From assembly GCF_015240255.1 (NCBI RefSeq), contig NZ_CP061205.1, forward strand, positions 1,695,501-1,759,500: a stretch of DNA of 64,000 bases, written 5' to 3'. The position numbers were made by a program, and so were the translations under genes. A model generated the notes under the pieces. That model ran no database searches, was not told the DNA's origin, and saw only the letters and a program-made list of their open reading frames with translations. Below, piece by piece: positions 1-13,992 of the stretch (position 1 is the first letter of the stretch; each line of letters starts with the position of its first letter). The stretch is from Kordiimonas pumila. Lineage in GTDB: Bacteria; Pseudomonadota; Alphaproteobacteria; Sphingomonadales; Kordiimonadaceae.

Positions 1-2
1 AT

Positions 3-1460
3 AACCTGATGGTTGCGCCGCAACTAAACCCGGCATTGCAAGCTTTCCCTAACGGATGCCTTGATCCCGCGGGCGCGGCCGTTGGCGGTGAAGCCTGCTA
101 TAACAGCCAGTGGATAAGTGACGATCCAAATGTTACTTATGGCACCTACGATGTGTACTCAAATGTAGATGTCTGGGGGCTTTCTGCTACTATGAGCTAT
201 CAGGTAAGTGATACATTCGAGATTAAGTCGATCACTGCTTACCGCGATCTGGATAGCGAATTTGCCCGTGACGGTGATGGCTCCCCGCTTCAGATTAATG
301 CGACTGAAGATGTTTTTACATACCGCCAGTGGAGTGAAGAACTACAGTTTCTGGGCACTGCCATGGATGGGCGTTTGAATTATATTGTGGGCGGTTTTTT
401 CTTTGATGAAAAAGGCCAGAACCCCAATATTGTTGACTTTGGCTTTGCCCGCTTCCTGAGCGGCGGTGATATCCACAATACATCTCTTGCAGGTTTTGGC
501 CAGGTAACATACGAACTGACAGATAGGGTATCTCTGACAGGTGGTATTCGTTACACAGACGAAACAAAGCGTTTTACGCCTAACCAGTATATTATCAGCA
601 CGTATACCGTGCCGTTCTTCCCGCCCTTCCTGCAATTCCAGCCGGGTGATGTGCTTACGACAACTGACCAGCAGGAAGCGAAAGCGAATGAGTGGACGCC
701 TCATGTTAACCTGTCTTTCCGGCCAAATGACGATGCAATGGTATATGCAAGTTATTCACGCGGCTTTAAAAGTGGCGGTTTTACGCAGCGTATTTTCCCT
801 GCAATTGCAACGCCGCCGTCTTTCGAGCCAGAAACAGTTGATGTTGTAGAAGGTGGTTTCAAGCTTGATACATTTGACCGGCGTCTGCGCCTTAATGGTT
901 CTGCTTATTATACATGGTATAATGATTTGCAGGTAACGGTGCCTGTCGGCGTGGCCCCAACAACACAAAATGCAGCCAAAGCACGGATCAAAGGCTTTGA
1001 ACTGGAAGCTACGGCTGTTCCTGTTGATAATTTGCTGGTGTCCTTTGCGGCGGGCTATACCGATGCCTACTATCTGGAACTTGATGGCCGTGTTAGCCCA
1101 ACGATTACGCTTGATAACAATTTCCCCGGCACATCAAAATGGACACTGAATAGCTCTGTTTCTTATGACATGGCGGTTGGAAGCGACATGATCCTGACAC
1201 CGCGTGTGGACTGGAGCTACCGATCATCATATTTCTTTGATGCTGAAAACCTTGTTGGGCAGGAGGGCTACCATCTTGTTAATGCAAGCCTGACGCTGGA
1301 GAATGAAACGGGTGGTTGGTCTGTGTCTGTGTTTGGTAAAAACATTGGCGGCACAGACTATTATATTCACGGTGAACAGATTATGGACCCAGCGGGCTTC
1401 CGTATGCTGTCTCCTTCTCGGGGCAGCGAATGGGGAATTCGTCTGGAGAAGAGCTTCTAG
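3..1460 (+). CDS. TonB-dependent receptor, C-terminal part (5' end outside window)
   Basis: This is the 3' part of an outer-membrane TonB-dependent receptor, which imports a siderophore, vitamin B12 or other large ligand using TonB energy. The reading frame is already open at the first base, so the signal peptide, TonB box and plug lie upstream; the ATG at 9 is not a credible start. The visible 485 or so residues look like the beta-barrel: alternating aromatic/polar strands, the typical YASYSRGFKSGGF strand near residue 250 of this fragment, and a terminal phenylalanine (LEKSF) expected for BAM-dependent insertion. The next gene starts 4 nt after its stop, so receptor and nitronate monooxygenase are probably cotranscribed. 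The ligand cannot be read from the sequence; the neighbours hint at an organic nitrogen compound, which is inference. Confidence 0.9.
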   Translation, partial: NLMVAPQLNPALQAFPNGCLDPAGAAVGGEACYNSQWISDDPNVTYGTYDVYSNVDVWGLSATMSYQVSDTFEIKSITAYRDLDSEFARDGDGSPLQINATEDVFTYRQWSEELQFLGTAMDGRLNYIVGGFFFDEKGQNPNIVDFGFARFLSGGDIHNTSLAGFGQVTYELTDRVSLTGGIRYTDETKRFTPNQYIISTYTVPFFPPFLQFQPGDVLTTTDQQEAKANEWTPHVNLSFRPNDDAMVYASYSRGFKSGGFTQRIFPAIATPPSFEPETVDVVEGGFKLDTFDRRLRLNGSAYYTWYNDLQVTVPVGVAPTTQNAAKARIKGFELEATAVPVDNLLVSFAAGYTDAYYLELDGRVSPTITLDNNFPGTSKWTLNSSVSYDMAVGSDMILTPRVDWSYRSSYFFDAENLVGQEGYHLVNASLTLENETGGWSVSVFGKNIGGTDYYIHGEQIMDPAGFRMLSPSRGSEWGIRLEKSF

Positions 1461-1464
1461 GATT

Positions 1465-2502
1465 ATGGCAGATACATATGTAAATGCCAGTGTCAGCAAC
1501 CGTTTCACGCAAGAGTATGGCCTTGCCCATCCTTTTGCGTGTGCGGGGCTTGCTTTTGCTGGAATGACACCGCCGCTTGCGATTGCTGTATCAAAAGTGG
1601 GTGCTCTGGGTGCTGTGGGCATTGGTAAAATGCCAGCCCCTTATATAGAGTTTTTGGTGAACAGCATTCGTGCTGCAACAGACGGTCCGTTCAATGTGAA
1701 TTTCATCACGATTTTCACAGAAGATAGCCACATTGCTATGTGCGAAAAACTAAAGCCTGCAGTGGTTTCTTTCCACTGGGGGCACCCGCCTAAAAGCTGG
1801 ATTAGTCGCTTGCAGGCAGCTGGAATAAAAGTGTGGGAGCAGGTTGGTTCTGTTGACGCGGCAAAGCTGGCCGTTGATGAAGGTATCGACCTGATTATTG
1901 CACAGGGCACAGAGGCCGGGGGCCATAACCTTGGCACACTGCCCTTGTTTGTTTTACTGCCGGAGATTATTGATGCTGTGGCACCTGTTATGGTGCTGGC
2001 AGCGGGCGCTATTTCAGATGGAAGGGGCGTTGCTGGCGCTCTTGCTATGGGCGCAGACGGCGTTTGGGTTGGCACCCGGATGGCTGCAACGGTTGAGGCT
2101 GATATTGTTGATAGTTACAAAACAAAAATGCTGCAATCAGAAGCAGATGATGCTGTTTTATCTTCGCTCTTTGGTAGGGATACGCTAGACTTTAACCCCA
2201 TGCGGTTGCTGCGAAACAAGATCGTTGAAGAATGGCAGGGGCGCGAAGAAGAGGCACCTGTTGATCCGTTTGCAGAAGAACTGCTGGGCACCATGAAAAT
2301 AGGTGATATGGAGCTACCTTTGCATAAGTTTAGTAATATGATGCCAATGAGCACCGCAACGGCAGATGTGGAACAAATGCCGCTTCTTGCGGGGCAGGGT
2401 GTTGGGCTTATTAAGACAATAGAACCTGCGGGTGTTGTCGTGGAAAAAATGATGGCAGACGCAAAAGCTATTCTTCAAAAACTTGGTAAGGCAGCAGGGT
2501 GA
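1465..2502 (+). CDS. Nitronate monooxygenase (2-nitropropane dioxygenase family)
   Basis: This is an FMN-dependent TIM-barrel enzyme of the NMO/NPD family, which oxidises alkyl nitronates to carbonyl compounds and nitrite; some members act on other substrates. It has 345 residues from ATG 1465. The frame is open further upstream, but that would run into the receptor gene, and ATG 1465 gives the usual N-terminus. Family signs are the early P-F-A-C-A-G-L-A-F-A-G-M segment, the flavin-phosphate motif AQGTEAGGH around residues 145-153, and GAISDGRG followed by GADGVWVGTRM. Its stop overlaps the amidase start by 4 nt (GTGA), which implies translational coupling. The general family call is safe; the true substrate is unknown. 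Confidence 0.88.
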   Translation: MADTYVNASVSNRFTQEYGLAHPFACAGLAFAGMTPPLAIAVSKVGALGAVGIGKMPAPYIEFLVNSIRAATDGPFNVNFITIFTEDSHIAMCEKLKPAVVSFHWGHPPKSWISRLQAAGIKVWEQVGSVDAAKLAVDEGIDLIIAQGTEAGGHNLGTLPLFVLLPEIIDAVAPVMVLAAGAISDGRGVAGALAMGADGVWVGTRMAATVEADIVDSYKTKMLQSEADDAVLSSLFGRDTLDFNPMRLLRNKIVEEWQGREEEAPVDPFAEELLGTMKIGDMELPLHKFSNMMPMSTATADVEQMPLLAGQGVGLIKTIEPAGVVVEKMMADAKAILQKLGKAAG

Positions 2503-3875
2503 GTATGCCGGATAGACCAATATACCAGTTAGACGGTGTTGCAGTACTTGCAGCCTTTAAAGAGGGCAGCCTTAGCCCGGATGGATATATGCAGGCGGTA
2601 GCCCCTGCTATAGCAAAAGCAAAAGAACTGAACGCCTATGTTTCGGGGGCAGAACAGTTTAGCGCTCTTGAAAAGGGTGGCATTTTGGCCTGCCTGCCTA
2701 TTTCTGTAAAAGACAATATTGCTGTAAACGGCGTGCCGACGACGGGCGCAACCGCGGCTTTTGCTACTTTAATGCTGGAAGAAAATGCGGCTATTACACG
2801 ACTACGTAAGGCTGGTGCTGTGATTGCAGGCAAAACCAATCTGCATGAACTGGCTTTTGGTATTACGGGTGCAAATGCGCATACAGGGCCTGCCCTAAAC
2901 CCTTTTGACCCATCAAGGCTTGCAGGGGGCAGTTCGAGCGGTGCGGCAATTTCAGTGGCTGTTGGTGCAGCGGCAGTTGCTATTGGCACAGATACCGGGG
3001 GGTCGTGCCGTGTGCCAGCGGCACACTGCGGTGTTGTTGGTTTTAGGCCCACAACAGGGCGTTATCCGGGGGGAGGCTATATCGCACTTTCTGCATCGCG
3101 TGATACGCTCGGTGTTATTGCCCGGTCTGTTATGGATATTGCGCTTGTTGACAATGTTATTATGCAGGCGGAAAATACCATTTCCGGCATGCCGCTACAG
3201 AATATCACGCTGGGTGCAGTAGCGCCCGAAAGCTTTGGCATGGGGTTTGATCCCGCTGTGGTTGAGGCCTACTCGAAAGCCTTGAAGTCACTTGAAACGC
3301 AAGGTGTGAATATTGTTGAAGCAGACCTTGGTGACGCAATAGCCATTGATGAAGCTTGTGGGTTTATCATTGCGGTTTACGAATCTGAAGCAAGCTTGAC
3401 CCGCCTTGCTGCCGCAAAGCTTGGGATCTCGCCGCTTGATTTTGTCGCCTCTATTAAAAGCCCTGATGTTAAAGGCCTAATTGCTATGCAGGGTGGTGTG
3501 GAGGCTATTCCAGAAAGTGTTTACCGGGAAGCAGTAGATACGAAACTGCCACAGCTTCGGCAGGCTTTTGCAAAGGTTTTCAACGTATCGGGTGTGGATG
3601 CGCTGATCTATCCAACAAGCTTGTTTTTGCCGCCGCCCGTGGATGTGGGGGAAACGATTTCAGTGGCAGGTGCCGATCTGCCCACTTTTCCAGCCTATAC
3701 CGCAACAACACGGCCTGACAGCATGTCTGGTCAGCCTTCAGTGTCGCTACCATGTGGCTTGGTAGAAGGGTTGCCAATAGGTTTACAGCTCGTGGGTGCA
3801 CGCGGTGATGATACCCGGCTTTTGACTATTGCAGCAACAATTGAAAAAGCCTTACCCGCACGACCGATCCCATAA
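2499..3875 (+). CDS. Amidase, amidase-signature family
   Basis: This serine hydrolase of the amidase-signature superfamily cleaves carboxamides to acid and ammonia. It has 458 residues, a usual length. The Ser-cisSer-Lys triad is visible: Lys71 in SVKDN, Ser145/146 in GGSSSG, and nucleophile Ser169 in DTGGS, with the family's glycine/serine-rich stretch between. I take the GTG at 2499, which overlaps the upstream stop as GTGA; an ATG two codons on (2505) is the alternative. The gene sits between nitronate monooxygenase and a PPOX flavoprotein and about 1.7 kb from a nitrilase, so an aliphatic or aryl amide substrate is plausible. There is no tRNA-dependent gatB partner nearby, which argues against GatA. 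Confidence 0.9.
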   Translation: MSMPDRPIYQLDGVAVLAAFKEGSLSPDGYMQAVAPAIAKAKELNAYVSGAEQFSALEKGGILACLPISVKDNIAVNGVPTTGATAAFATLMLEENAAITRLRKAGAVIAGKTNLHELAFGITGANAHTGPALNPFDPSRLAGGSSSGAAISVAVGAAAVAIGTDTGGSCRVPAAHCGVVGFRPTTGRYPGGGYIALSASRDTLGVIARSVMDIALVDNVIMQAENTISGMPLQNITLGAVAPESFGMGFDPAVVEAYSKALKSLETQGVNIVEADLGDAIAIDEACGFIIAVYESEASLTRLAAAKLGISPLDFVASIKSPDVKGLIAMQGGVEAIPESVYREAVDTKLPQLRQAFAKVFNVSGVDALIYPTSLFLPPPVDVGETISVAGADLPTFPAYTATTRPDSMSGQPSVSLPCGLVEGLPIGLQLVGARGDDTRLLTIAATIEKALPARPIP

Positions 3876-3888
3876 AGGACATGTGAAT

Positions 3889-4509
3889 ATGACTGATACA
3901 AATACACTTGAGAGCCTTGACGGACTGCGTGCCATCATTGGCGAGCCACACGAACTGGTCACAAAAAAAATTGTACCGTATCTGGATGACATGGCGCATC
4001 GCTTTATTGCGCATTCGCCTTATGTAATGCTGTCCACTGCCAGCAAGGAAGGCGTGCCTGATGTTTCGCCGCGTGGTGACGGGCCGGGCTTTGCCTATAT
4101 AGCAGATAACCATACGCTATATTTGCCTGAACGGCAGGGTAACAAGCTTGCTTTCAGTTTGCAGAATATTCTTGAGAACCCCAACGTTGCTCTCATGTTT
4201 ATCATCCCTGGCGTTGATGAGGCATACCGTGTGCATGGCACGGCGCGTATCATTAACGACCCGGTTATACTGGAGCGTTTAACAGCACGCGGCCAGCCTG
4301 CGTTACTGGCGCTTGAAATTAAGGTGAAACAAAGTTTCCTGCACTGTGGCAAGGCCATGAAACGTAGCCAGCTTTGGAAAGTGGACCCAAAAGAAACCAA
4401 AATGTCCTTCCGGTTTGGAGCAACTGTTGCACGCGAATCTGGCGGCGGCGATGAGGTTGCAAAAATGGTTGATCAGTTGGTTGAGGAAGATTACCGCGAC
4501 AATCTTTAG
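3889..4509 (+). CDS. PPOX-class FMN-dependent protein (DR_2398/MSMEG_1061 type)
   Basis: This is a split-barrel flavoprotein of the pyridoxamine-phosphate-oxidase-like superfamily, 206 residues. The ATG at 3889 follows an AAGGA element at a good distance; a longer reading frame would overlap the amidase. Characteristic stretches are DMAHRFIAHSPYVMLSTA, DVSPRGDGPGF and VHGTARI, matching what I recall of the DR_2398-like subgroup. Members bind FMN or F420 and reduce or oxidise varied small molecules; the reaction here is unknown. It is the last gene of the receptor-NMO-amidase unit, 13 nt after the amidase. Its stop overlaps the stop of the convergent NmrA-like gene by 4 nt. Confidence 0.82.
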   Translation: MTDTNTLESLDGLRAIIGEPHELVTKKIVPYLDDMAHRFIAHSPYVMLSTASKEGVPDVSPRGDGPGFAYIADNHTLYLPERQGNKLAFSLQNILENPNVALMFIIPGVDEAYRVHGTARIINDPVILERLTARGQPALLALEIKVKQSFLHCGKAMKRSQLWKVDPKETKMSFRFGATVARESGGGDEVAKMVDQLVEEDYRDNL

Positions 4510-5387
4510 CGTGTAAAGGTTTTCGCGGCGTGGGTGAGGTAATCAGAGAGGCTTTTAGGTTGCTTGCCTGTGAGATTTAAAACGGCATCACTGGTGTAAT
4601 TTTCCCCGCCTGCTGCACAGCATGTCATCAGGCTTGCCACTTGGCCTGCAAGCCAGCCATTTAAGCTTGCGCCGTGTTTAAGCAGGGTTGGCATTAGAAA
4701 TCGCGGCGGGCTGACATGGCGCACTTTGTGGTTTAGGGCAACTGTAAGACCAGCCGCAACCTCTGCCATAGTTAGGGTTTCGGGGCCGGTTAAAATATGC
4801 ACAGTGCCATCAAGGGACCTGTCTGTTAAAGCGCGTGCAGCGGCAACGGCTACGTCTTCGAGGTCAACAAAACCTATAGCACCGCGTTTGGTTGATGCTG
4901 GCAGAAAGCCACGTTTGATTGGTTCTTTGAACAGTTCGAGCGACTGGTAGAAAAATGTTGGTCGCAAAATAACATAAGGCAGGCCGGAGGCGATAAGGGC
5001 GTCTTCCACCGCGCCGTGCTGAACGCCAAATGACACTCTGGGTGACAGGCCAGCCGTTATGGCAGATATTTTTACTATTCGAATAGTACCCAGTGCCGCC
5101 GCTGTATTGATGAGTTGAATTTCCTGCGCTGCCATGCCGGGATGATCCCCGATAACAAGCAAGACTGTATCAACGCCGTTTAAGGCGCGCTTTACGGTTC
5201 TAATATCGCTAATGTCGCCGTTTATCACTTCAATTGGGAAGGGGTGACTGTGGGGTACGGCCATAGGTCGCCGTGTTAGCACCCTCAGCAAACCTGACAT
5301 TTCTGTGGTGCCTAGTTTTTGTAAAACAGCACCGCCTACGCGGCCTGTGGTACCTAGTAATAAGGTTTTATTTTGGGTTTCCATCAT
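4506..5387 (-). CDS. NmrA-like / atypical SDR NAD(P)-binding protein
   Basis: This 293-residue Rossmann-fold protein belongs to the NmrA/atypical short-chain dehydrogenase group. The N-terminus carries the dinucleotide-binding motif LLGTTGRVGGAVLQ (residues 10-23), followed by RPMAV at the end of the second strand. Later segments VDTVLLVIGDHPG, VKISAI and LRPTFFYQSL fit NmrA-like proteins, which act as NAD(P)H quinone reductases, isoflavone-reductase-like enzymes or redox-sensing regulators. The classical YxxxK pair is not evident. The gene is divergent from the nitrilase operon and converges with 4-nt overlap on the PPOX gene. Its role in the neighbourhood is unknown. Confidence 0.8.
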   Translation of the reverse strand: MMETQNKTLLLGTTGRVGGAVLQKLGTTEMSGLLRVLTRRPMAVPHSHPFPIEVINGDISDIRTVKRALNGVDTVLLVIGDHPGMAAQEIQLINTAAALGTIRIVKISAITAGLSPRVSFGVQHGAVEDALIASGLPYVILRPTFFYQSLELFKEPIKRGFLPASTKRGAIGFVDLEDVAVAAARALTDRSLDGTVHILTGPETLTMAEVAAGLTVALNHKVRHVSPPRFLMPTLLKHGASLNGWLAGQVASLMTCCAAGGENYTSDAVLNLTGKQPKSLSDYLTHAAKTFTR

Positions 5388-5565: not shown

Positions 5566-6585
5566 TTGGCTAATGAGCTTCAAACATTTAAAGCGGCTGC
5601 CGTGCAAGCGGCCCCTGTGTATTATGACCTAAAAGCCAGCATTAAAAAGGCTGTTGGTCTTATTGAAGAAGCCAGTAAAAAAGGCTGTAGCCTTATTGCT
5701 TTTGGCGAGGCATGGTTGCCAGGGTATCCATTTCATATCTGGCTTGGCGCGCCTGCATGGTCCATGCAGTTCACCGTACCTTATTTTGATAACTCGCTTG
5801 ACCTGAAAAGTGAAGACTTTGCTGTTCTTTTAAAAGCCGCCGTAGACAATAGCATTATGGTTTCTATGGGATACAGTGAGCGGTGTGGCGGTAGCCTGTA
5901 TTTGGGGCAGTGCCTTATCGGCACAGACGGCAAGCTCATCTATGCACGCCGTAAACTAAAGCCAACACATGTGGAGCGCACCGTATACGGCGAAGGATAT
6001 GGCAGTGATTTAATGGTGTCGGATACTGGTCTTGGTAAGGTTGGTATGCTTTGTTGTTGGGAACACTTACAGCCACTTAGTAAATATACACTTTATAGTC
6101 AGAATGAGCAGATTCACATTGCTGGTTGGCCGGCCTTTTCCCTGTACCGTGAAAATGCTTATGCGCTTGGTAAAGAAGTGAATATGTCGGCTAGTCGTGT
6201 TTATGCAGTTGAGGGGCAGTGTTTTGTCATTGCAGCCAGCAGTGTCGTAACAGAGGGCTGCCTTAAAATGTTACATGCCGAAACGATGGTGCCTGATCTT
6301 TTAAGCCTAGGCGGTGGTTCCGCGATGATATTTGGGCCAGATGGCTGTGAACTGGCTGACTATTTACCTGAAACCGCAGAAGGCCTGATAGTCGCTGACA
6401 TTGACCTGAACCTTATCAAATATGCAAAAACGGTTGCAGACCCGGCCGGGCATTATGCCAAGCCTGAGGCAACACGCCTGCTATGGAACAAGGCACCTTT
6501 GCATGCAGTGGAAACAGCCGAACAAAAAGCAGATCATGTAACAAACATAGAGGGTGATAGCGATGATGACACAGGTGAGGCGTAA
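5566..6585 (+). CDS. Nitrilase
   Basis: This carbon-nitrogen hydrolase of the nitrilase branch hydrolyses nitriles to carboxylic acid and ammonia. From TTG 5566 it has 339 residues. The triad is clear: Glu48 in GEAWLPGYP, Lys132 in RRKLKPTHVER, and Cys164 in LCCWEHLQPL; the C-W-E context and the YGEGYG segment are those of true nitrilases rather than amidases or cyanide-only enzymes. The start at 5566 has GGAGAG at 5 nt and gives the normal N-terminus (ANELQTFKAAAVQAAP). The aldoxime dehydratase gene follows 2 nt after the stop, so the nitrile substrate is probably the product of that enzyme. The C-terminal tail is short and acidic (GDSDDDTGEA). Confidence 0.93.
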   Translation: MANELQTFKAAAVQAAPVYYDLKASIKKAVGLIEEASKKGCSLIAFGEAWLPGYPFHIWLGAPAWSMQFTVPYFDNSLDLKSEDFAVLLKAAVDNSIMVSMGYSERCGGSLYLGQCLIGTDGKLIYARRKLKPTHVERTVYGEGYGSDLMVSDTGLGKVGMLCCWEHLQPLSKYTLYSQNEQIHIAGWPAFSLYRENAYALGKEVNMSASRVYAVEGQCFVIAASSVVTEGCLKMLHAETMVPDLLSLGGGSAMIFGPDGCELADYLPETAEGLIVADIDLNLIKYAKTVADPAGHYAKPEATRLLWNKAPLHAVETAEQKADHVTNIEGDSDDDTGEA

Positions 6586-6587
6586 CA

Positions 6588-7655
6588 ATGGGTGATCATG
6601 CTACCATTGTCCCCCGCCGTTCTGCGCCGCCAGTTAATAGGCCAGATGGATACGAACCAACGTATGATGCTTTTGAGCCGAGGTTTGCCAGCCACGATTA
6701 TATCGTGCTGGTTGTGTTTGGGTTTGAGATGCCGGATGCACATTCAGCCCCGGGTGCCGTCAAGACCCGGTTGGAAATGTGCTTGAAAGCGGCGCCGCAG
6801 CCGGTAATTCGTGAAGCTGGCATAACGGCATCCAGCATTGGCCCGCACGCTGAAATGCATTTTGTTTACTGGAAAACAATCGCAGATTATGAAGCGTGGG
6901 TAAAAAATTCAGGCATTGAAGAAGTGTTCGGCGATGCCAGTTTATTGTCTGGTCAGGTTGGCCTGTGGCGGGAAATTTGTTTTTTGTCGCTAGACCACAA
7001 TGAAACATCAGGGTCACGTAGTGAAGAACTGTCCGGTATTGCCAATATTGCTGATCAAATGGCGATTACGCCGCATCATGGCTATTGGGGAAGTGCCCGT
7101 GACAGAATGGTGGCGGCAGCCGAAGATGGCCTAGCCTCAGATGCGCCTGTGCAGCCTGATGCGACAGACGGTAAAGGCCAGCGCATCACGGTTCAGGGGC
7201 CTGAAAATGCATGCTTTATTCGAAGTTCGCAGGACCTGTCCCGGGCTAACCCGGAGCAAAAGGAAATGTATTTTAGCACTGTGAAACCTGCCCTGATGAA
7301 TGGCTTAAGCTATCTGAAACATAACCCATCTGTCAGCGGGTGTTCTGGCGTTCGTTTTGTTGAGGAAGTTACGGAAGCAGGCCTTAAGTCTGAGCGTAGC
7401 TGTGTTACCGGCTTTTTTCGGTCGTTTGCAGATCTTGAGAACTGGACACACAACCACCCCACGCACCATGCCATTATGGCAAATTTTATAAACATGGTGC
7501 AGCACTGGCAAGGGCAGCCGGGGCTGCATCTTTGGCATGAAATAACGGTGTTTCCTAAAGCCACACTTTACGGCGACTATATTAACTGTTCGGCGGCAGG
7601 AACTTTGATGGCGGTTGGCATCCCTGTTTTACCCTCAGCCATACAGACGCCGTAG
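6588..7655 (+). CDS. Aldoxime dehydratase (haem-containing)
   Basis: This 355-residue protein resembles the haem aldoxime dehydratases (OxdA/OxdRE/OxdB), which dehydrate aldoximes to nitriles using ferrous haem. From memory of the Pseudomonas/Rhodococcus enzymes (Arg178, Ser219, proximal His299, distal His320), the counterparts here are Arg171 or Arg173 in HHGYWGSARDRM, Ser213 in FIRSSQD, His293 in HPTHHAI, and His314 or His317 in LHLWHE. The constant offset of about six residues supports the match. Each half has the ferredoxin-like strand pattern of the family. Two bases separate it from nitrilase and 24 from the AhpD-like gene. Together the first two genes convert R-CH=NOH to R-CN and then to R-COOH. 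Aliphatic versus aryl preference cannot be told. Confidence 0.88.
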   Translation: MGDHATIVPRRSAPPVNRPDGYEPTYDAFEPRFASHDYIVLVVFGFEMPDAHSAPGAVKTRLEMCLKAAPQPVIREAGITASSIGPHAEMHFVYWKTIADYEAWVKNSGIEEVFGDASLLSGQVGLWREICFLSLDHNETSGSRSEELSGIANIADQMAITPHHGYWGSARDRMVAAAEDGLASDAPVQPDATDGKGQRITVQGPENACFIRSSQDLSRANPEQKEMYFSTVKPALMNGLSYLKHNPSVSGCSGVRFVEEVTEAGLKSERSCVTGFFRSFADLENWTHNHPTHHAIMANFINMVQHWQGQPGLHLWHEITVFPKATLYGDYINCSAAGTLMAVGIPVLPSAIQTP

Positions 7656-7679
7656 TATTCAGTATAAAAAGGAAGAATG

Positions 7680-8240
7680 ATGTTTACGTATTTTGATAAA
7701 GAAACTGCACCTAAAGAGTCTGTAAAACAGATGGAACAATCTGTTGCCATCTTTGGGATGTTACCCAATATGCACCGTATTTTGGCGGGTGCCCCTGCAA
7801 CCTATGAAGCCTATAATACTGTTTATAATCTTTTTACCAAACACACGGAGTTTACACCGCTTGAAGCGCAGGTCGTGGTGATGACATCAAACCATGAGAA
7901 CCGCTGCCATTACTGCATGGCGGGCCATACTATGGGGATGAAGCTTGCCAAAATGCCAGATGACATTATCGAGGCCCTTCGGGAAGGTACACCTATTGCT
8001 GACCCCAAGCTTGAGGCGCTGCGTACTTTTACGAAAGAGCTTCTGGATAACCGCGGTCATATAGGCGATGATCGGCTACAGGCATTTCTGGGTGCGGGCT
8101 ATACAAAACGTCAAGCGCTAGAGGTTTTGTGTGGGCTGGCATCAAAGTTGATTTCAAATTTCACAAACGCTTTGGCGCATACAGAGGTTGATGCCCCGAT
8201 GAAAAAATATGAGTGGCAGCATCCGGCAGATCGCACATGA
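7680..8240 (+). CDS. AhpD-like / carboxymuconolactone decarboxylase-family protein
   Basis: This 186-residue all-helical protein has an AhpD-type redox motif, Cys76-x-x-Cys79 with His83 (NRCHYCMAGH), preceded by an acidic-histidine pair (NHEN). Members are peroxidase-like thiol reductants or CMD-fold enzymes. I prefer the second of two adjacent ATGs (7680), which stands 6 nt from AAGGA; the first (7677) is too close. It is third in the nitrilase-aldoxime dehydratase operon, 24 nt behind. It might protect the haem enzyme or remove peroxide or other by-products, which is speculation. Confidence 0.85.
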   Translation: MFTYFDKETAPKESVKQMEQSVAIFGMLPNMHRILAGAPATYEAYNTVYNLFTKHTEFTPLEAQVVVMTSNHENRCHYCMAGHTMGMKLAKMPDDIIEALREGTPIADPKLEALRTFTKELLDNRGHIGDDRLQAFLGAGYTKRQALEVLCGLASKLISNFTNALAHTEVDAPMKKYEWQHPADRT

Positions 8241-8249
8241 AAAACCTAT

Positions 8250-10415
8250 TCAATGAGAGGGTGTTTGTTGCCCCTTTGTGTTTGGCGGTGCTACACGTGC
8301 GACTATGTGTGGGAAAACGCCGAGTGACAATATGACAGCAAGGCCAGCACCATATGTGATTTCCAACCCAAAACGCTGCGAGGGTGGAAAGTCGGAAAGG
8401 GCAAAAACAGAAAAGCCAATCATAATTGTGATAGTGGAAACAAGCGCTGGCCAGCTTTGGCTATCAAGGGCGTTTTTCCAGATTTCCCAGTCCCTGATTG
8501 ACGTGGCACCTCTTTCTTTCATTTGTCGTCTTGCGGTTACTGTCAGGTGGATCATGTTATCAACAATTAGGCCAAGGCAGATATTCATGGCGGGAGATGA
8601 AATAATATCTATGGGGATGCCAGCAATACCGAGTGTACCGAGCACGATTGCAGAAATAGACGCGGCGCAGACCATGACTCCGACTGTGACCATCAGACTA
8701 GATGAAATAATAAAAGCGATAACACCAAATAATAAAATGAGCGTTAGAATGCCCATTGTCATGCTTTTTGTTACAGAGGCGGCCAGTTCACCTTGCAAAT
8801 AATAGGTGCCACCAGTAAGGGTTACGGCAAAGCCATGCTGCGCTGGTATTTTCTCAATTTCATTAATAATTTCAAGCCTGTCACGGTCGCGGCCTGCCTC
8901 TATCATACGCAGCATAAACAGGGCGTGCGTGCGTTCCTTGTTCACAAAGCTGTTGGCAACTGCGCCGTATTCAGGCTTTGACAGAATATCAAGCAAGATA
9001 TTCCAGGGTAATAGCTTGCCAAGCCAGTGCTCATCGCCTTCCGCCATAATAACCGGTAATGATATAACCGAGCCAACCGAAGCATGTTCGCTTAAGGCTT
9101 GCTGCAATTCCCACATACGGTCATAGGAATCTCCCTTATCAAGCTTACCAAGGTCATTACGGCGAATAACAAGCAACAGCGGGTTACTGCCGCCGTTGTC
9201 ATCAACATAAAAAATGCCTTTATAGATTTTGGAATCTTCTTTGAAATAAGACAACAGGCTTGGGTCCGTGTTTAATTTGCTGATGCCGGTTATGCCTAGC
9301 CCTAAGGCAGCCCCAATAGTGATAACCAGTAAAACCCGGGTAATGTGCCTTGCCCTAGGGAATTTTCTGGCAAGCATATAACTGAAACTGGACGGGTTTA
9401 CCTGTGCCATCCGCAGAAATGCTGGGAAAATGGTGTAGGCACATACAAAGGCACAGGCCGTGCCAATTGTGCCACCAATGCCAAGTTGGTTTAGGGGCTT
9501 TGCTTCAACAAAAATAAGGCTGCTAAAGCCCAAAAGGGTTGTCGTACCTGCCCAGAAAGAAGCAGGGAGCGTGTGGCGGATAGTTTCCTGCAGTTTTGCA
9601 CCGGCAACTTTGTTTTCCGAATTACACCAGTTCGAAACCAGAAAAATAATGTGCGACAATGTCAGAACAAAAACAATAGTACCAAGGTTTGCGGTTAGAA
9701 TTCCGATGGGGATGCCCATAAAACTTTGAAGGGTGAGGGTAAGAACCGCCGCCGTAACGCAGGTAACAACGGCGCCAGAAACAACAGTGGCAGACCTGAA
9801 AATAACACTCAGCACCAAAGCACTGAGGATCACAGCACCTAGGGTGAACACTTTCATGTCATTTGTTAAATTGCGGCGAATTTGCTCAACAATATAAGGC
9901 AGGCCTGAAATATGAATACTGTAGCGTTGACTTTCCTCTTCGCTGGCAATTTGTTCAACCTTTTCAACAAGGCCTGCGAAGTTATCTGTGTTTATGAATG
10001 CAATAACAAAGCTAGATTTTTCATCTTTGCCGATAAGCAGTCGTTTCCAAAGTGGGTTTTTTCTTGCTGCATCAAGGTCGTCGGGGCCGTTTGTAATGCT
10101 TTGTACGGATGTAACGCCCTTTAGCGCTTTGATGCGTGTTGTGAGGCTGCCAATTTTTGTGATAAAATTAGGATCTTCAATACTGCCTGCTGTACCAACA
10201 TTCAGAAGTATTTGCTGGTTAGAGGGGAATACCTCTCGGATAGCCTGATTTTTTTTGTATATGCTACTGTCAGAGGAAAAGAAAAAGTCAGGCGTAACTT
10301 CTGGTTCCAAGTCTACATTCAGGAAAAATGCTGCCCAGATAGCAATAACAAAAACCGGCACAGCGATATAGATAAGGTAGCCTGAAATGCCTTCAGTTTT
10401 GGGAAGAATTTTCAC
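8250..10415 (-). CDS. RND-superfamily (MMPL/SSD-type) exporter
   Basis: This 721-residue inner-membrane transporter has the duplicated RND layout: TM1 near residues 13-31, a periplasmic loop (FFFSSDSSIYKKNQ), five more TM segments (about 190-345), a second lone TM (about 358-380), a second periplasmic domain, and a final five-TM block (about 550-710). Sequence and length fit the 'predicted exporters of the RND superfamily' (MMPL domain), which move lipids, hopanoids or hydrophobic compounds with proton motive force. No membrane-fusion or outer-membrane partner is adjacent. It converges with the AhpD-like gene at a 9-nt gap and lies downstream of metE-thioesterase on the same strand, separated by a hairpin. 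Confidence 0.85.
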   Translation of the reverse strand: MKILPKTEGISGYLIYIAVPVFVIAIWAAFFLNVDLEPEVTPDFFFSSDSSIYKKNQAIREVFPSNQQILLNVGTAGSIEDPNFITKIGSLTTRIKALKGVTSVQSITNGPDDLDAARKNPLWKRLLIGKDEKSSFVIAFINTDNFAGLVEKVEQIASEEESQRYSIHISGLPYIVEQIRRNLTNDMKVFTLGAVILSALVLSVIFRSATVVSGAVVTCVTAAVLTLTLQSFMGIPIGILTANLGTIVFVLTLSHIIFLVSNWCNSENKVAGAKLQETIRHTLPASFWAGTTTLLGFSSLIFVEAKPLNQLGIGGTIGTACAFVCAYTIFPAFLRMAQVNPSSFSYMLARKFPRARHITRVLLVITIGAALGLGITGISKLNTDPSLLSYFKEDSKIYKGIFYVDDNGGSNPLLLVIRRNDLGKLDKGDSYDRMWELQQALSEHASVGSVISLPVIMAEGDEHWLGKLLPWNILLDILSKPEYGAVANSFVNKERTHALFMLRMIEAGRDRDRLEIINEIEKIPAQHGFAVTLTGGTYYLQGELAASVTKSMTMGILTLILLFGVIAFIISSSLMVTVGVMVCAASISAIVLGTLGIAGIPIDIISSPAMNICLGLIVDNMIHLTVTARRQMKERGATSIRDWEIWKNALDSQSWPALVSTITIMIGFSVFALSDFPPSQRFGLEITYGAGLAVILSLGVFPHIVARVAPPNTKGQQTPSH

Positions 10416-10512: not shown

Positions 10513-11289
10513 CTAGTCTAAAGCACTGACAGGTTTATGGTCTTTGTTAACGGCAACCATAATAAAATTTGCCTGACCACAGTGTCGCCTGTTATGAGAA
10601 AATAGGCTTTCTGCCCAAAGCTCAACAGCTACAGCCATGGAACTATTGCCTGTGCTGGTTACATGCGAATATAGTATTATAATCTCACCTTTTTGGACTT
10701 GGCTGGTAAAGTCTGCCCGCTGTGATGAAGCCATAACAACGGCTTTGCGGCAATGCCTTGTTGCTGTAATAGAGGCAGCTTTCCCCATGGCGGCGAGGGC
10801 ATTTCCGCCGTACAGACTGCCATAATGGCTGGTTTGCTCAGGGAACACAATATCAACCATAGCTTGGGTTTCGAGTGTATCTATTGTAGTTTTGGCTGGT
10901 AAGGGCGGCAAGATGCCGCCCCCTTTATTAAACTCTGCACCAACAGCAACCATGTTGAACTGGCCTCTGCTGCAAAGCCGCCTTTCACCAGTTAGCAGGG
11001 CTTCTGCAATCAGTTCAACTGTCACGGTAAGCGACCGCTGACCAACACGTGTGACATGGGCATTCACATCGGCTATCTCACCAACATAAGCAGGGGCCTC
11101 AAAATCAATATGCTCACACGAGGCGGTTACGAAGTTTGCTCTTGCATAGCGCGCGGCAGCTATAAAGGCTGCTTTGTCCATTTGCGCCAACCCTACACCC
11201 CCAAACATGGTGCCGTGGTGGTTGGCATCACCCGGGAAGATGATGTCAACCAAACGGGTTATGCCTGTATAGGCTGCACTGTCAGTCAT
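10513..11289 (-). CDS. Double-hotdog acyl-CoA thioesterase, second domain degenerate
   Basis: This acyl-CoA hydrolase has 258 residues and two fused hotdog domains. The first carries the full signature, Asn23-His-His-Gly-Thr-Met-Phe-Gly-Gly with catalytic Asp38 in LAQMDKAA. The second repeats the motif as SHYGSLYGG...LAAMGKAA, with Ser154 in place of Asn and Gly169 in place of Asp, so only the first half looks catalytic; the second is probably structural. The start at 11289 overlaps the metE stop as ATGA, implying translational coupling. An upstream in-frame extension lies inside metE and is not credible. Coupling of a thioesterase to methionine synthase, and thereby to B12 control, is unusual. 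Confidence 0.85.
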   Translation of the reverse strand: MTDSAAYTGITRLVDIIFPGDANHHGTMFGGVGLAQMDKAAFIAAARYARANFVTASCEHIDFEAPAYVGEIADVNAHVTRVGQRSLTVTVELIAEALLTGERRLCSRGQFNMVAVGAEFNKGGGILPPLPAKTTIDTLETQAMVDIVFPEQTSHYGSLYGGNALAAMGKAASITATRHCRKAVVMASSQRADFTSQVQKGEIIILYSHVTSTGNSSMAVAVELWAESLFSHNRRHCGQANFIMVAVNKDHKPVSALD

Positions 11290-13640
11290 GTATTTCGGCT
11301 TTCTGCATGTTGGCGAAGGTTTTTGGCGGCGGCTACCATGGCAATCAGGGCCGGGCGCACTTCGTCCCATGAGCGTGTTTTTAAGCCGCAGTCAGGGTTT
11401 ACCCAAATTTGGGTTGCCTTTAAAAGGCCGTTGGCTTTTTCAAGCAGGTTGCTTATTTCGGCCGTTTTGGGGATGCGCGGTGAGTGAATATCATAAACGC
11501 CTGGCCCAATATCATTTGGGTAACTGTAGGATACAAAGGCATCCAGAAGCTCCATTTTAGAGCGAGACGTTTCAATGGAAATGACATCGGCATCCATCGC
11601 AGCGATAGAGGATATAATGTCATTAAACTCGCAGTAACACATATGGGTATGTATCTGGACTGCATCCGTCACACCGCTGGTTGCAAGCTTGAAACAGGCA
11701 ACAGCCCACTCAAGATATGCACTCCATTCCAGACGCCTTAAGGGCAGCCCCTCTCGAAGTGCAGGTTCATCAACTTGAATAAGGCGGATGCCCGCAGTTT
11801 CAAGGTCCGTCACTTCATCTCTGAGGGCAAGGGCAATCTGTTTGCATACGTCAGCGCGGGGCATGTCATCGCGGACAAACGACCATTGCAGCATGGTAAC
11901 GGGCCCGGTTAACATGCCTTTTACGGGCCTGCTGGTAAGGGACTGGGCATATGCGGTCCATTCTACTGTCATGGCGTGCGGGCGGGCAACATCGCCGTAT
12001 ATGATAGGGGGGCGCACACAGCGTGAGCCGTAGCTTTGTACCCATGCGTGTTTGGTAAAGGCATAGCCGGCCAGTTGTTCACCAAAATATTGTACCATGT
12101 CATTACGTTCAAACTCGCCGTGCACCAATACATCAATGCCGATCTCTTCTTGCCAGCGAATGGCTCTTTTTGTCTCTGTTTTCAAAAAAGCATTGTAGGC
12201 TGTAGGGCTTAGTTCTCCTTTGTTAAAGGCGGTACGGGCCTTGCGTACCTCAGCTGTTTGGGGAAAAGACCCAATAGTCGTTGTTGGGAAAAGTGGTAAG
12301 CCGGTGGCTTCCTGCTGTAGGAAACTGCGTGTTTTAAACGGGCTGTTTCTACTGGTTAATTCAGAGCCTGTAGCCTGCACACGGTTTTGTACGGTTTTAT
12401 TGTGCACCTTGTCAGAAGTAGCGCGTGCTTGCAGGGCTTTGGTTGCTGCTTGCAGCGCGCCTGCGACAGTCTCAACACCTTTTTCAAAAGCTTGACCAAG
12501 GGTTGATAACTCTGCCATTTTCTGGACAGAGAAAGCTAGCCAGCTCTTTAGGTCACTATCCAGTTCTGTCTCAAGTTCAAGATCAATGGGGGTGTGCAGG
12601 AGCGAGCAGGAAGGTGCAAGCTCAATGCCTGTTAAACCACGTTCCTGAACTACCGGTAATAGCCAGTCATGCAGCTTTTGCAGGTCTGCCCGCCAAATGT
12701 TCCTGCCGTCAATGACACCAAGGGACAATATCTGGTTTTGCTGAAGCTTTTGCCTGACTGCTGTGAGTTGTTCTGGTGCGCGCACCAAATCTATGTGTAG
12801 GCCGGCAACAGGTAGGGATGTTGCTATGTCAAGATTGTTACCGAGGCTGCCAAAATATGATGTTAGCATAATTTTGAGCGAGGGCACTGTTTTAGCAATT
12901 TTGCTATATACCCTTTTGTAGGCTGCACGCTCTATTTCGCTGAGATCCAACACAAGGGCGGGTTCGTCTATTTGTAACCATTCCGCTCCTGCTGCCTGAA
13001 GTTGCTCCATAAGGTCCAGATAAACTGACAGTATCTTGTCAATCAGGTTAATACATTCTGTTGTACCATCTGTGCATTTGCTCAGTTTTAAAAAGCTAAT
13101 AGGCCCAAGGATTACGGGGCGAGTTTTATAACCGATCGCTAGCGCTTCGCGGAACTCATCAACCGGTTTTGTGGATGCAAGGGTAAAATCTTGATCGGGC
13201 TCCAGTTCCGGCACCATATAGTGATAATTGGTGTCGAACCATTTGGTCATTTCCAGTGCTGGCACACCGTGGGCTGGTGCGCTGTGACCATGCACGCATA
13301 TGGGGTGCGAGGCGCCGCCTACGCTGCCCCGTGCCATGGCAAAATAGGTTTCAAGGTTCACTGGGCCGCCGCTCCAGCCATAAGCTTTGGGAATGGCACC
13401 AACCATAACGGCAGTATCCAGAACATGATCGTAAAACGAAAAGTCATTTGATGGTATGGTGGTAATGCCAAGCGCGTGTTGGCGCGCCCAGTTGGCGCAC
13501 CGAAGGGCTGTTGCTGTTTCAGACAGGTCTTTTGCGCTTAGCTGGCCAGACCAGTATTTTTCGAGGGCAAATTTTAGCTCTCTGCGTGGCCCAATTCTGG
13601 GCGTTCCAAGTGATGCAATTGATAGAGTGTTTTTAGACAT
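11286..13640 (-). CDS. metE: Cobalamin-independent methionine synthase MetE
   Basis: MetE transfers the methyl group of 5-methyltetrahydropteroyl-triglutamate to homocysteine to make methionine, without B12. From ATG 13640 it has 784 residues, the usual length, in two homologous barrels. All four zinc ligands are present at the same spacing as in E. coli (His641, Cys643, Glu665, Cys726): His666 and Cys668 in HTHMCYCEF, Glu690 in SIETSRS, and Cys751 in NPDCGLKTR. The upstream leader holds a cobalamin riboswitch, so B12 should shut the gene off; a palindrome over the promoter suggests a second control. A GTG-initiated in-frame extension to 13739 is possible but adds sequence unlike MetE. The 3' end overlaps the thioesterase start by 4 nt. 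Confidence 0.96.
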   Translation of the reverse strand: MSKNTLSIASLGTPRIGPRRELKFALEKYWSGQLSAKDLSETATALRCANWARQHALGITTIPSNDFSFYDHVLDTAVMVGAIPKAYGWSGGPVNLETYFAMARGSVGGASHPICVHGHSAPAHGVPALEMTKWFDTNYHYMVPELEPDQDFTLASTKPVDEFREALAIGYKTRPVILGPISFLKLSKCTDGTTECINLIDKILSVYLDLMEQLQAAGAEWLQIDEPALVLDLSEIERAAYKRVYSKIAKTVPSLKIMLTSYFGSLGNNLDIATSLPVAGLHIDLVRAPEQLTAVRQKLQQNQILSLGVIDGRNIWRADLQKLHDWLLPVVQERGLTGIELAPSCSLLHTPIDLELETELDSDLKSWLAFSVQKMAELSTLGQAFEKGVETVAGALQAATKALQARATSDKVHNKTVQNRVQATGSELTSRNSPFKTRSFLQQEATGLPLFPTTTIGSFPQTAEVRKARTAFNKGELSPTAYNAFLKTETKRAIRWQEEIGIDVLVHGEFERNDMVQYFGEQLAGYAFTKHAWVQSYGSRCVRPPIIYGDVARPHAMTVEWTAYAQSLTSRPVKGMLTGPVTMLQWSFVRDDMPRADVCKQIALALRDEVTDLETAGIRLIQVDEPALREGLPLRRLEWSAYLEWAVACFKLATSGVTDAVQIHTHMCYCEFNDIISSIAAMDADVISIETSRSKMELLDAFVSYSYPNDIGPGVYDIHSPRIPKTAEISNLLEKANGLLKATQIWVNPDCGLKTRSWDEVRPALIAMVAAAKNLRQHAESRNT

Positions 13641-13711
13641 AGGCTTAACCCCAAATGTTGGGGGCAAAGGCCAAGGGGAAGCATGCCTGAACAAGCAGCA
13701 AAAAGCTGGCG

Positions 13712-13750
13712 TTAAAGCATAAGCATTCCTCCGGGGCACCCCGCCCGAGG
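13712..13750 (-). promoter_or_regulatory. Leader hairpin with embedded GGAGG, between riboswitch and metE
   Basis: Downstream of the aptamer the minus-strand RNA can fold CCUCGGGCGGGGUGCCCCGGAGG, pairing CCUC with GAGG and CGGG with CCCG. GGAGG at 13732-13728 would be a strong ribosome site, but what follows is only a two- to four-codon frame (AUG CUU AUG CUU UAA, 13726-13712), about 85 nt before the metE ATG. It may be part of the riboswitch expression platform or a coupling leader; no U-run follows, which argues against an intrinsic terminator. Confidence 0.4.
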
Positions 13751-13762
13751 ACGTTCAATTTT

Positions 13763-13945
13763 GTCGCGGCAGGTCTCCTGACTTGCGGGTCAATGCTTTT
13801 GTCCGGCCTTCCCGATGCATGACACATCAGTGGCTGATAGTGGACAGAAGCTCACCGCCTACAGTTGCGGGGGCAGTTTTGGCATTGCTTGGCCATAAGC
13901 CTAACGCACCAAATTCCCTCTTAGCTCTTGGCCAAGTGTGGCCAG
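13763..13945 (-). ncRNA. Cobalamin (B12) riboswitch upstream of metE
   Basis: Read on the minus strand, this region has the conserved adenosylcobalamin aptamer pieces in order: AGAGGGAATTTGGTGCG (13922-13906), CTGCCCCCGCAACTGTA (13875-13859), the B12 box AGCCACTGA (near 13835-13827), CGGGAAGGCCGG and the 3' closing segment AAGTCAGGAGACCTGCC (13785-13769). Order and spacing match the family. It lies about 120 nt before the metE start. Riboswitches of this class repress metE when cobalamin is available, implying that a B12-dependent MetH or B12 uptake exists elsewhere in the genome. Confidence 0.95.
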
Positions 13946-13962
13946 AGAACCGTGACAGGAAG

Positions 13963-13992
13963 CGTGTAGCATTCTTGTGGGCATGAAGTCAA
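13963..13992 (-). promoter_or_regulatory. Candidate metE promoter
   Basis: On the minus strand, TTGACT (13992-13987) and TACACG (13968-13963) are separated by 18 nt and would start transcription just before the riboswitch. The -35 box lies inside the right arm of the long palindrome, so a protein bound there would block RNA polymerase. Confidence 0.45.

Follow-up and report, generated by a model that had tools for sequence, protein, structure and literature searches.

Three adjacent plus-strand genes at 5566-8240 of a 64,000-nucleotide stretch of Kordiimonas pumila DNA (contig NZ_CP061205.1; hereafter the window, whose first letter is position 1 in all coordinates that are not preceded by a locus number) encode a nitrilase, a haem aldoxime dehydratase (Oxd) and an AhpD/CMD-family protein with a CxxC motif, and the gene run to which they belong is adjoined, outside the window, by a near-complete iac-like cluster predicted to take indole-3-acetic acid (IAA) to catechol. 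We consider it probable that these genes form the entry part of a catabolic locus, through which indole-3-acetaldoxime, as well as the nitrile and the amide, would be led into auxin breakdown. This reading is carried by the catalytic residues conserved in both enzymes and by the linkage of iac genes to a nitrilase-dehydratase pair, which recurs in a second lineage with a different joint. Published work is cited by PMC number, from excerpts of the papers concerned.

The iac-cat-pca cluster

The iac names used here were assigned by us from identity and gene order. In the K. pumila genome, a MarR regulator gene, pcaJ and pcaI stand in this order on the minus strand; then follow, on the plus strand, iacH-A-B-I-C-D-E, catB-catC-catA, pcaD, a CHMI-like gene and a gene for a flavin-reductase/LysR fusion. 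After the fusion gene come an AraC gene (minus strand), genes for a TonB-dependent receptor, a nitronate-monooxygenase-like protein (NMO), an amidase and a PPOX-type flavoprotein, an NmrA gene (minus strand) and, finally, the nitrilase, dehydratase and CMD genes. Homologues of iacA, B, C, D, E, I and H occur together upstream of the window, and their products resemble those of four plasmid clusters to different extents: identity is 58-70% for IacC, 48-58% for IacE, 46-51% for IacA and 43-52% for IacD, 39-47% for IacI in the two clusters that have it, and 44-51% for IacH in three clusters and 29% in the fourth. IacB is 51-68% identical to its counterparts in the iac-like loci L185 and L187-L191. 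The products of pcaI, pcaJ, catB and pcaD exceed the NCBIfam cut-offs, whereas that of catA narrowly misses its own with 381.6 against 392. Between iacE and catB, which overlap by 29 nucleotides, there is no frame. The MarR protein has as best PDB matches 7kua (E 6.4e-30) and 7l19 (E 9.5e-25), both of which are in the code list of a paper on MarR proteins and auxin (PMC9613470), and is 45% identical to the MarR of Novosphingobium EMRT-2, which suggests that it may belong to the IacR subgroup.

The clusters of Pseudomonas putida 1290, Acinetobacter, Marinomonas and Novosphingobium have in common with this one iacH, A, B, I, C, D and E, a flavin reductase and a related MarR protein. The order A-B-I-C-D-E is that of the Marinomonas cluster (PMC11373566), and in Novosphingobium EMRT-2, as here, catB, catC, catA, pcaD, an AraC gene and a TonB receptor gene (38% identical) stand alongside. 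Unlike the known clusters, the one described here has no iacF among the upstream frames listed, its flavin reductase is fused to a LysR effector domain, and nitrilase, dehydratase, second amidase, NMO, PPOX and CMD genes are attached to it. In the fusion protein (L054:6248-7432, just upstream of the window), the flavin reductase domain precedes a LysR effector-binding domain, and no DNA-binding domain was matched with Pfam. The fusion is kept, at 57% identity, in an Erythrobacter iac-like cluster (L194:2816-3988) and may make the reductase responsive to a compound of the pathway. A first idea, based on the Rieske and cat genes alone, had been a route from benzaldoxime through benzoate to catechol; it was dropped in view of iacH-A-B-I and a MarR gene resembling those of auxin loci further upstream.

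The dehydratase and the nitrilase

5566..6585, plus strand: nitrilase, from a TTG start (PF00795, 173.2 bits, cut-off 23.2)
6588..7655, plus strand: haem aldoxime dehydratase (PF13816, 216.8 bits, cut-off 25)
7677..8240, plus strand: AhpD/CMD-family CxxC protein (PF02627, 27.2 bits, cut-off 23)

An earlier note on this DNA, made from its letters alone, had placed these three reading frames and named their products, and the reading-frame check and Pfam matches agree with it, as does the measured gap of 2 nucleotides between nitrilase and dehydratase genes; the gap between dehydratase and CMD genes is 21 nucleotides. The note had also held that the key residues of both enzymes are present, which is borne out by the alignments described below.

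In the PDB search, the dehydratase was aligned over nearly its full length with OxdB (7f2y, E 2.3e-46) and OxdRE (3a15, E 3.3e-35). Its residues H293, H317, S213, R173 and E139 align with active-site residues of OxdRE, which we take to be H299, H320, S219, R178 and E143, and which presumably act as the proximal His (in the PTH motif) and, for the others, as the distal His, Ser/Thr, Arg and Glu; OxdB has Thr at the position of S213. The proximal histidine, on whose presence the earlier note had made its assignment depend together with a significant family match (216.8 bits to PF13816, as listed), is retained: H293 aligns with the PTH-motif His of both OxdRE and OxdB and is invariant, like R173 and H317, in all 24 aligned sequences, E139 being conserved in at least 90%. 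When more distant rows are included (14-row alignment), H317 is no more than nearly invariant. Structure prediction, proposed earlier as a check, gave an AlphaFold model (built on 24 sequences) with a pLDDT of 90.4, and a structure search with this model returned OxdB, OxdRE and 3w08 at ranks 1-10, with TM scores of 0.83-0.91, while the further matches shown do not exceed 0.39. OxdB and OxdRE are thus alike to the window protein in fold and active-site residues and differ from it in sequence, being only 26-27% identical. Since the score against the NCBIfam OxdA equivalog lies well below the cut-off (168.5 bits against 600), we regard the protein as an Oxd without filing it under the OxdA subtype; it is a haem aldoxime dehydratase by homology, with aldoxime dehydration as its predicted activity.

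A search with the single dehydratase sequence brought no near relatives, and an alignment query then found 435 dehydratase loci, the best 80 of which were examined as named loci. In a tree built by a quick method, the window dehydratase, which has a long end branch, forms with seven of them (L105-L111) an eight-member clade (SH-aLRT 99) apart from OxdA, OxdRE and OxdB. Its identity is 46-51% with the fellow members of this clade and 26-35% with the remaining loci listed. Among the sequences compared, this clade is without a characterised member.

The nitrilase reading frame is longest from ATG 5515, but the TTG at 5566 appears the better start because a GGAGAG sequence, resembling a ribosome-binding site, lies just upstream of it and because the resulting protein of 339 amino acids is close in length to the nitrilases of several relatives (334-341 amino acids). 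The Glu, Lys and Cys motifs of the CN_hydrolase domain are present as FGEAW, RRKLKPTHVER and CCWEH; numbered from ATG 5515, they comprise E65, residues 145-155 and C181. In the PDB it matches 6zby, NitA, which we take to be the nitrilase of Pseudomonas fluorescens EBC191 (E 6.1e-109, 53% identity over 313 columns). The EBC191 enzyme is active on indole-3-acetonitrile (PMC8955678). Identity to the nitrilases of the dehydratase clade-mates is 59-63% in six of seven cases and 49% in the seventh, and the cut-off of TIGR04048, the Nit6803 family of nitrilases, was missed (213.5 bits against 502.6). We class the enzyme as arylacetonitrilase-like, with indole-3-acetonitrile as a predicted substrate.

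The AhpD-like protein

The CMD protein matches AhpD (6e8l) in the PDB with E 8e-35 and has the motif C77-x-x-C80-x-x-x-H84. It shares this CxxCxxxH motif and a near full-length match with the AhpD-like CMD proteins 6e8l and 3lvy, and differs from them in its place within a nitrilase-dehydratase run; a redox function is only predicted. It scores below the cut-off of the peroxidase-related family TIGR01926 (42.8 against 81.8). The attachment of a redox protein, to which the earlier note had drawn attention, recurs once, with a homologue 73% identical that lies between nitrilase and dehydratase genes in Emcibacter NORP245 (L117). This is the only case among the other 80 dehydratase loci, and no homologue was found in 26 other stretches compared. 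The Emcibacter run also contains, ahead of the CMD homologue, an octopine/nopaline-dehydrogenase-like gene (L117:6570-7655; PF02317, 101 bits). We had considered whether the window protein could be the 4-carboxymuconolactone decarboxylase of the cat-pca branch, and rejected this in view of the AhpD match, the CxxC motif and the presence of a separate catC (PF02426, 128.2 bits).

Nitrilase-dehydratase pairs are common

In 46 of the 80 named loci, the dehydratase has a nitrilase (200 bits or more) no further than 1.5 kb away; since only 51 of these loci reach a length of 18 kb, this and the other counts of gene context are minimum values. Six of the 34 plasmid records that contain a dehydratase were examined, and three of these have an adjoining nitrilase 51-56% identical to that of the window, two a distant nitrilase (31-32%) and one a nitrile hydratase. 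According to a review (PMC8955678), Oxds often share an operon with enzymes of the nitrilase or nitrile hydratase kind; for Bacillus and Bradyrhizobium it describes oxd as having an AraC-type regulator and what is probably a nitrilase gene next to it. The operons of Bacillus OxB-1 and Bradyrhizobium LTSPM299 thus resemble the present one in having a nitrilase beside a haem aldoxime dehydratase and an AraC-type regulator, and on Pantoea and Acinetobacter plasmids the nitrilase gene precedes the dehydratase gene with the same 2-nucleotide gap; unlike here, no TonB receptor, CMD or iac gene is annotated in those plasmid stretches. Consequently, while the enzymes, the gene run and the aldoxime-to-acid route of the earlier note stand, its view that an alphaproteobacterial version using nitrilase is little described does not, such pairs being published, Bradyrhizobium included (PMC8955678). 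The iac-like cluster, outside the window, had not been seen by its author; it alters which substrate is likely and how the locus is to be understood.

Another reading is that the genes would serve only to detoxify aldoximes or nitriles, the acid being excreted or used incidentally. It speaks for such a role that 79 of the 80 named loci have no iacA in the stretch compared. Nevertheless, 16 of the 80 loci have a TonB receptor gene (at least 200 bits) no more than 10 kb from the dehydratase, which suits uptake for use, and detoxification as the sole purpose seems to us very improbable.

Linkage with iac genes in other lineages

The linkage recurs on one contig of the uncultured Erythrobacter sp. 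2-204. There, the order is iacG fusion, CHMI, pcaD, catA, catC, catB, an iacF-like reductase, iacE, D, C, I, B, A and H, followed by pcaI, pcaJ and MarR, by AraC, and by receptor, nitrilase and dehydratase genes. Identity to the K. pumila proteins is 89% for IacB, 81% for IacC, 71% for IacA, 62% for the nitrilase and 51% for the dehydratase. In Erythrobacter the nitrilase unit is joined to the cluster at the MarR end, in K. pumila at the iacG end; hence the joint differs, and the association of iac genes with the nitrilase-dehydratase pair has been kept through rearrangement or has formed more than once.

Parts of the arrangement are found elsewhere. In genome G123, of the same class, NMO, amidase and PPOX genes follow iacHABICDE-MarR (L185), their products being 66%, 52% and 62% identical, respectively, to those of the window. 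A dehydratase gene of this genome (L036:7585-8595) has no nitrilase match in its 14.5-kb stretch. An NMO homologue (44%) lies beside AraC, receptor and nitrilase genes in Emcibacter NORP245. On a Streptomyces plasmid, cat-iac genes occupy 187.5-196.9 kb and oxd-nit genes 235.0-237.1 kb, about 38 kb apart. Six of the seven clade-mates have, immediately ahead of the nitrilase gene, one for a TonB receptor (at least 200 bits) that is 45-68% identical to that of the window, and L108 has a receptor fragment at its contig end. The clade-mate with the 68% identical receptor is Sphingopyxis Root154 (L107), which is reported to degrade IAA and to have a fragmented iad-like operon that is not induced by IAA (PMC11630574).

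Operons combining Oxd with nitrile-converting enzymes have been read as serving IAA synthesis (PMC6829993, PMC12462448), and in that spirit the locus could use the aldoxime to make auxin that acts on a plant or alga, with iac genes clearing only the excess. Both here and in Erythrobacter, the locus includes the near-complete set of genes from IAA to catechol and the beta-ketoadipate genes, and IAA would therefore be consumed; we hold an auxin-making role to be very improbable.

Neighbouring genes in the window

1..1460, plus strand: TonB-dependent receptor gene, 3' part (PF00593 and PF07715)
1465..2502, plus strand: nitronate-monooxygenase-like FMN protein, NMO (PF03060, 153 bits)
2499..3875, plus strand: amidase, nearest to indoleacetamide hydrolase (PF01425, 274.7 bits)
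3889..4509, plus strand: PPOX-type FMN flavoprotein (TIGR04025, 196 bits, cut-off 170)
4506..5387, minus strand: NmrA-like NAD(P)-binding protein, between two plus-strand gene runs (PF13460 and PF05368)
8250-10415, minus strand: MMPL-family protein gene, abutting the CMD gene (9 nucleotides beyond)

The receptor gene, of 764 amino acids in all, starts 834 bases ahead of the window; an AraC/FeaR-like regulator gene in divergent orientation precedes it. For the amidase, the best NCBIfam match is the indoleacetamide hydrolase PRK07488 (407.3 bits, under the cut-off of 532). The NmrA-like protein has a 27% identical homologue near the oxd-nit genes of the Streptomyces plasmid and none over the threshold in the 80 named dehydratase loci. 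Further on, a cobalamin riboswitch (RF00174, 125.7 bits; 13751-13969, minus strand) lies upstream of a cobalamin-independent methionine synthase gene (11286-13739), which is an ordinary arrangement.

Within the genus, PF13816 was matched in none of 18 congeners, four of which are 76-83% complete, and in none of 10 other family members searched. IacA was likewise not found in the 18 congeners at E 1e-20, one other family member having a weak 25% match, and the nitrilase-family matches of the congeners are at most 39% identical. The MMPL gene, in contrast to this, has a DNA match in three of the 18, where the protein is 61-68% identical, and the species-specific block may therefore end at this gene, which would perhaps be an old flank. 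In these three congeners, the genes of the K. pumila left flank are not beside MMPL, and an empty site was not demonstrated.

Weighing the auxin-degradation reading

Co-occurrence of the two functions in genomes, which speaks for this reading, was estimated in two draws, with K. pumila left out (thresholds E 1e-5 for Oxd and E 1e-70 for IacA, kinship not corrected). Among 384 genomes of the class, Oxd was found in 3, IacA in 2 and both in 2 (Fisher p 4e-5), and among 397 genomes of the phylum the numbers were 12, 11 and 2 (Fisher p 0.04). One genome, G454, is positive in both draws, and misses are possible since at most five candidates were scored per genome.

Several observations weigh against a front end devoted to auxin breakdown. 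In G123, G454 and G517, the Oxd and IacA genes are on separate contigs or have more than 1 Mb between them. Among 11 genomes, completeness unstated, in which the dehydratase is a close relative or has a receptor linked to it, IacA (E 1e-60) was detected in one, and, among the seven dehydratase clade-mates, in the Erythrobacter genome only; the front end is therefore not tied to iac. Only one of the 80 named loci has iacA within 10 kb of the dehydratase. No match to NMO, amidase, PPOX, NmrA or CMD was found in the Erythrobacter 2-204 stretch, and the iacF-like frame that is missing from the listed upstream frames of K. pumila was not sought in the rest of the genome. At the locus itself, GC content is flat (0.476-0.500) and marks no island, the upstream regions of receptor and nitrilase genes share no motif above shuffles, and the receptor run is split from the nitrilase run by an opposite-strand gene. 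Finally, there are Novosphingobium iac-like clusters with TonB receptor and AraC genes and no annotated nitrilase or dehydratase; hence a receptor alone is no sign of aldoxime uptake and may serve IAA or another compound.

These data leave room for one main rival, a broad arylacetaldoxime pathway in which chiefly phenylacetaldoxime or other plant aldoximes would be converted and the acid would leave through phenylacetate (Paa) catabolism, the iac neighbours reflecting a chance packing of catabolic genes. The genome has a PaaA at 502.5 bits (cut-off 280), about 0.94 Mb away and the only paa gene searched for, so that phenylacetaldoxime could be used too; characterised Oxds accept several aldoximes (PMC8955678), and, as said, six of the seven clade-mates' genomes gave no IacA. 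Against chance packing stand the position of the iac-like cluster directly upstream, the return of the association in Erythrobacter with another joint, and an amidase whose nearest relative is indoleacetamide hydrolase. On balance we think this broader route rather unlikely and keep to auxin breakdown as the probable destination.

Proposed pathway

Under the auxin-breakdown reading, the TonB-dependent receptor would bring an indolic compound in through the outer membrane, and the haem enzyme would dehydrate indole-3-acetaldoxime to indole-3-acetonitrile, from which the nitrilase would release IAA and ammonia. The amidase (2499-3875) may recover indole-3-acetamide. The iac-like genes would convert IAA to catechol, which would then be degraded along the beta-ketoadipate pathway by the products of catA, catB, catC, pcaD and pcaIJ; the genes concerned would presumably be expressed together. 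As to the CMD protein, it could be a thiol redox helper that perhaps keeps the dehydratase haem ferrous. The nitrile may also enter directly, since E. coli with the IacA of Caballeronia is reported to convert more than 90% of 3-indoleacetonitrile, compared to 34% of IAA (PMC7225977).

A wider proposition, which we advance as possible rather than probable and which would extend auxin catabolism in a way not yet described, is that some alphaproteobacteria use one such locus to import indole-3-acetaldoxime or the nitrile by a dedicated TonB receptor and, by way of an AhpD-aided, separate Oxd clade, to lead it through IAA to catechol and the beta-ketoadipate pathway. Among the open PMC papers listed by our searches, none was seen to join aldoxime dehydratase genes with iac genes or with a TonB receptor in a single locus. 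The terms 'aldoxime dehydratase' and 'TonB-dependent' occur together in two papers (PMC3137637, PMC7699435), and clusters of both the iac and the aldoxime-dehydratase kind are reported as enriched in environmental Nocardiaceae, the excerpt not stating co-location (PMC12462448).

Significance

If the auxin-breakdown reading is true, Oxd-nitrilase operons, which are often read as devices for auxin synthesis, would serve here for the consumption of auxin precursors. Studies on aldoxime-nitrile genes in the exchange between plants and bacteria have been described as largely lacking (PMC8955678), and the iac linkage in two lineages offers, for this clade, a testable answer: the aldoxime would be a food and auxin an intermediate. 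The locus also provides a dehydratase from a clade that has no characterised member among the sequences compared, and a candidate receptor for the uptake of its substrate.

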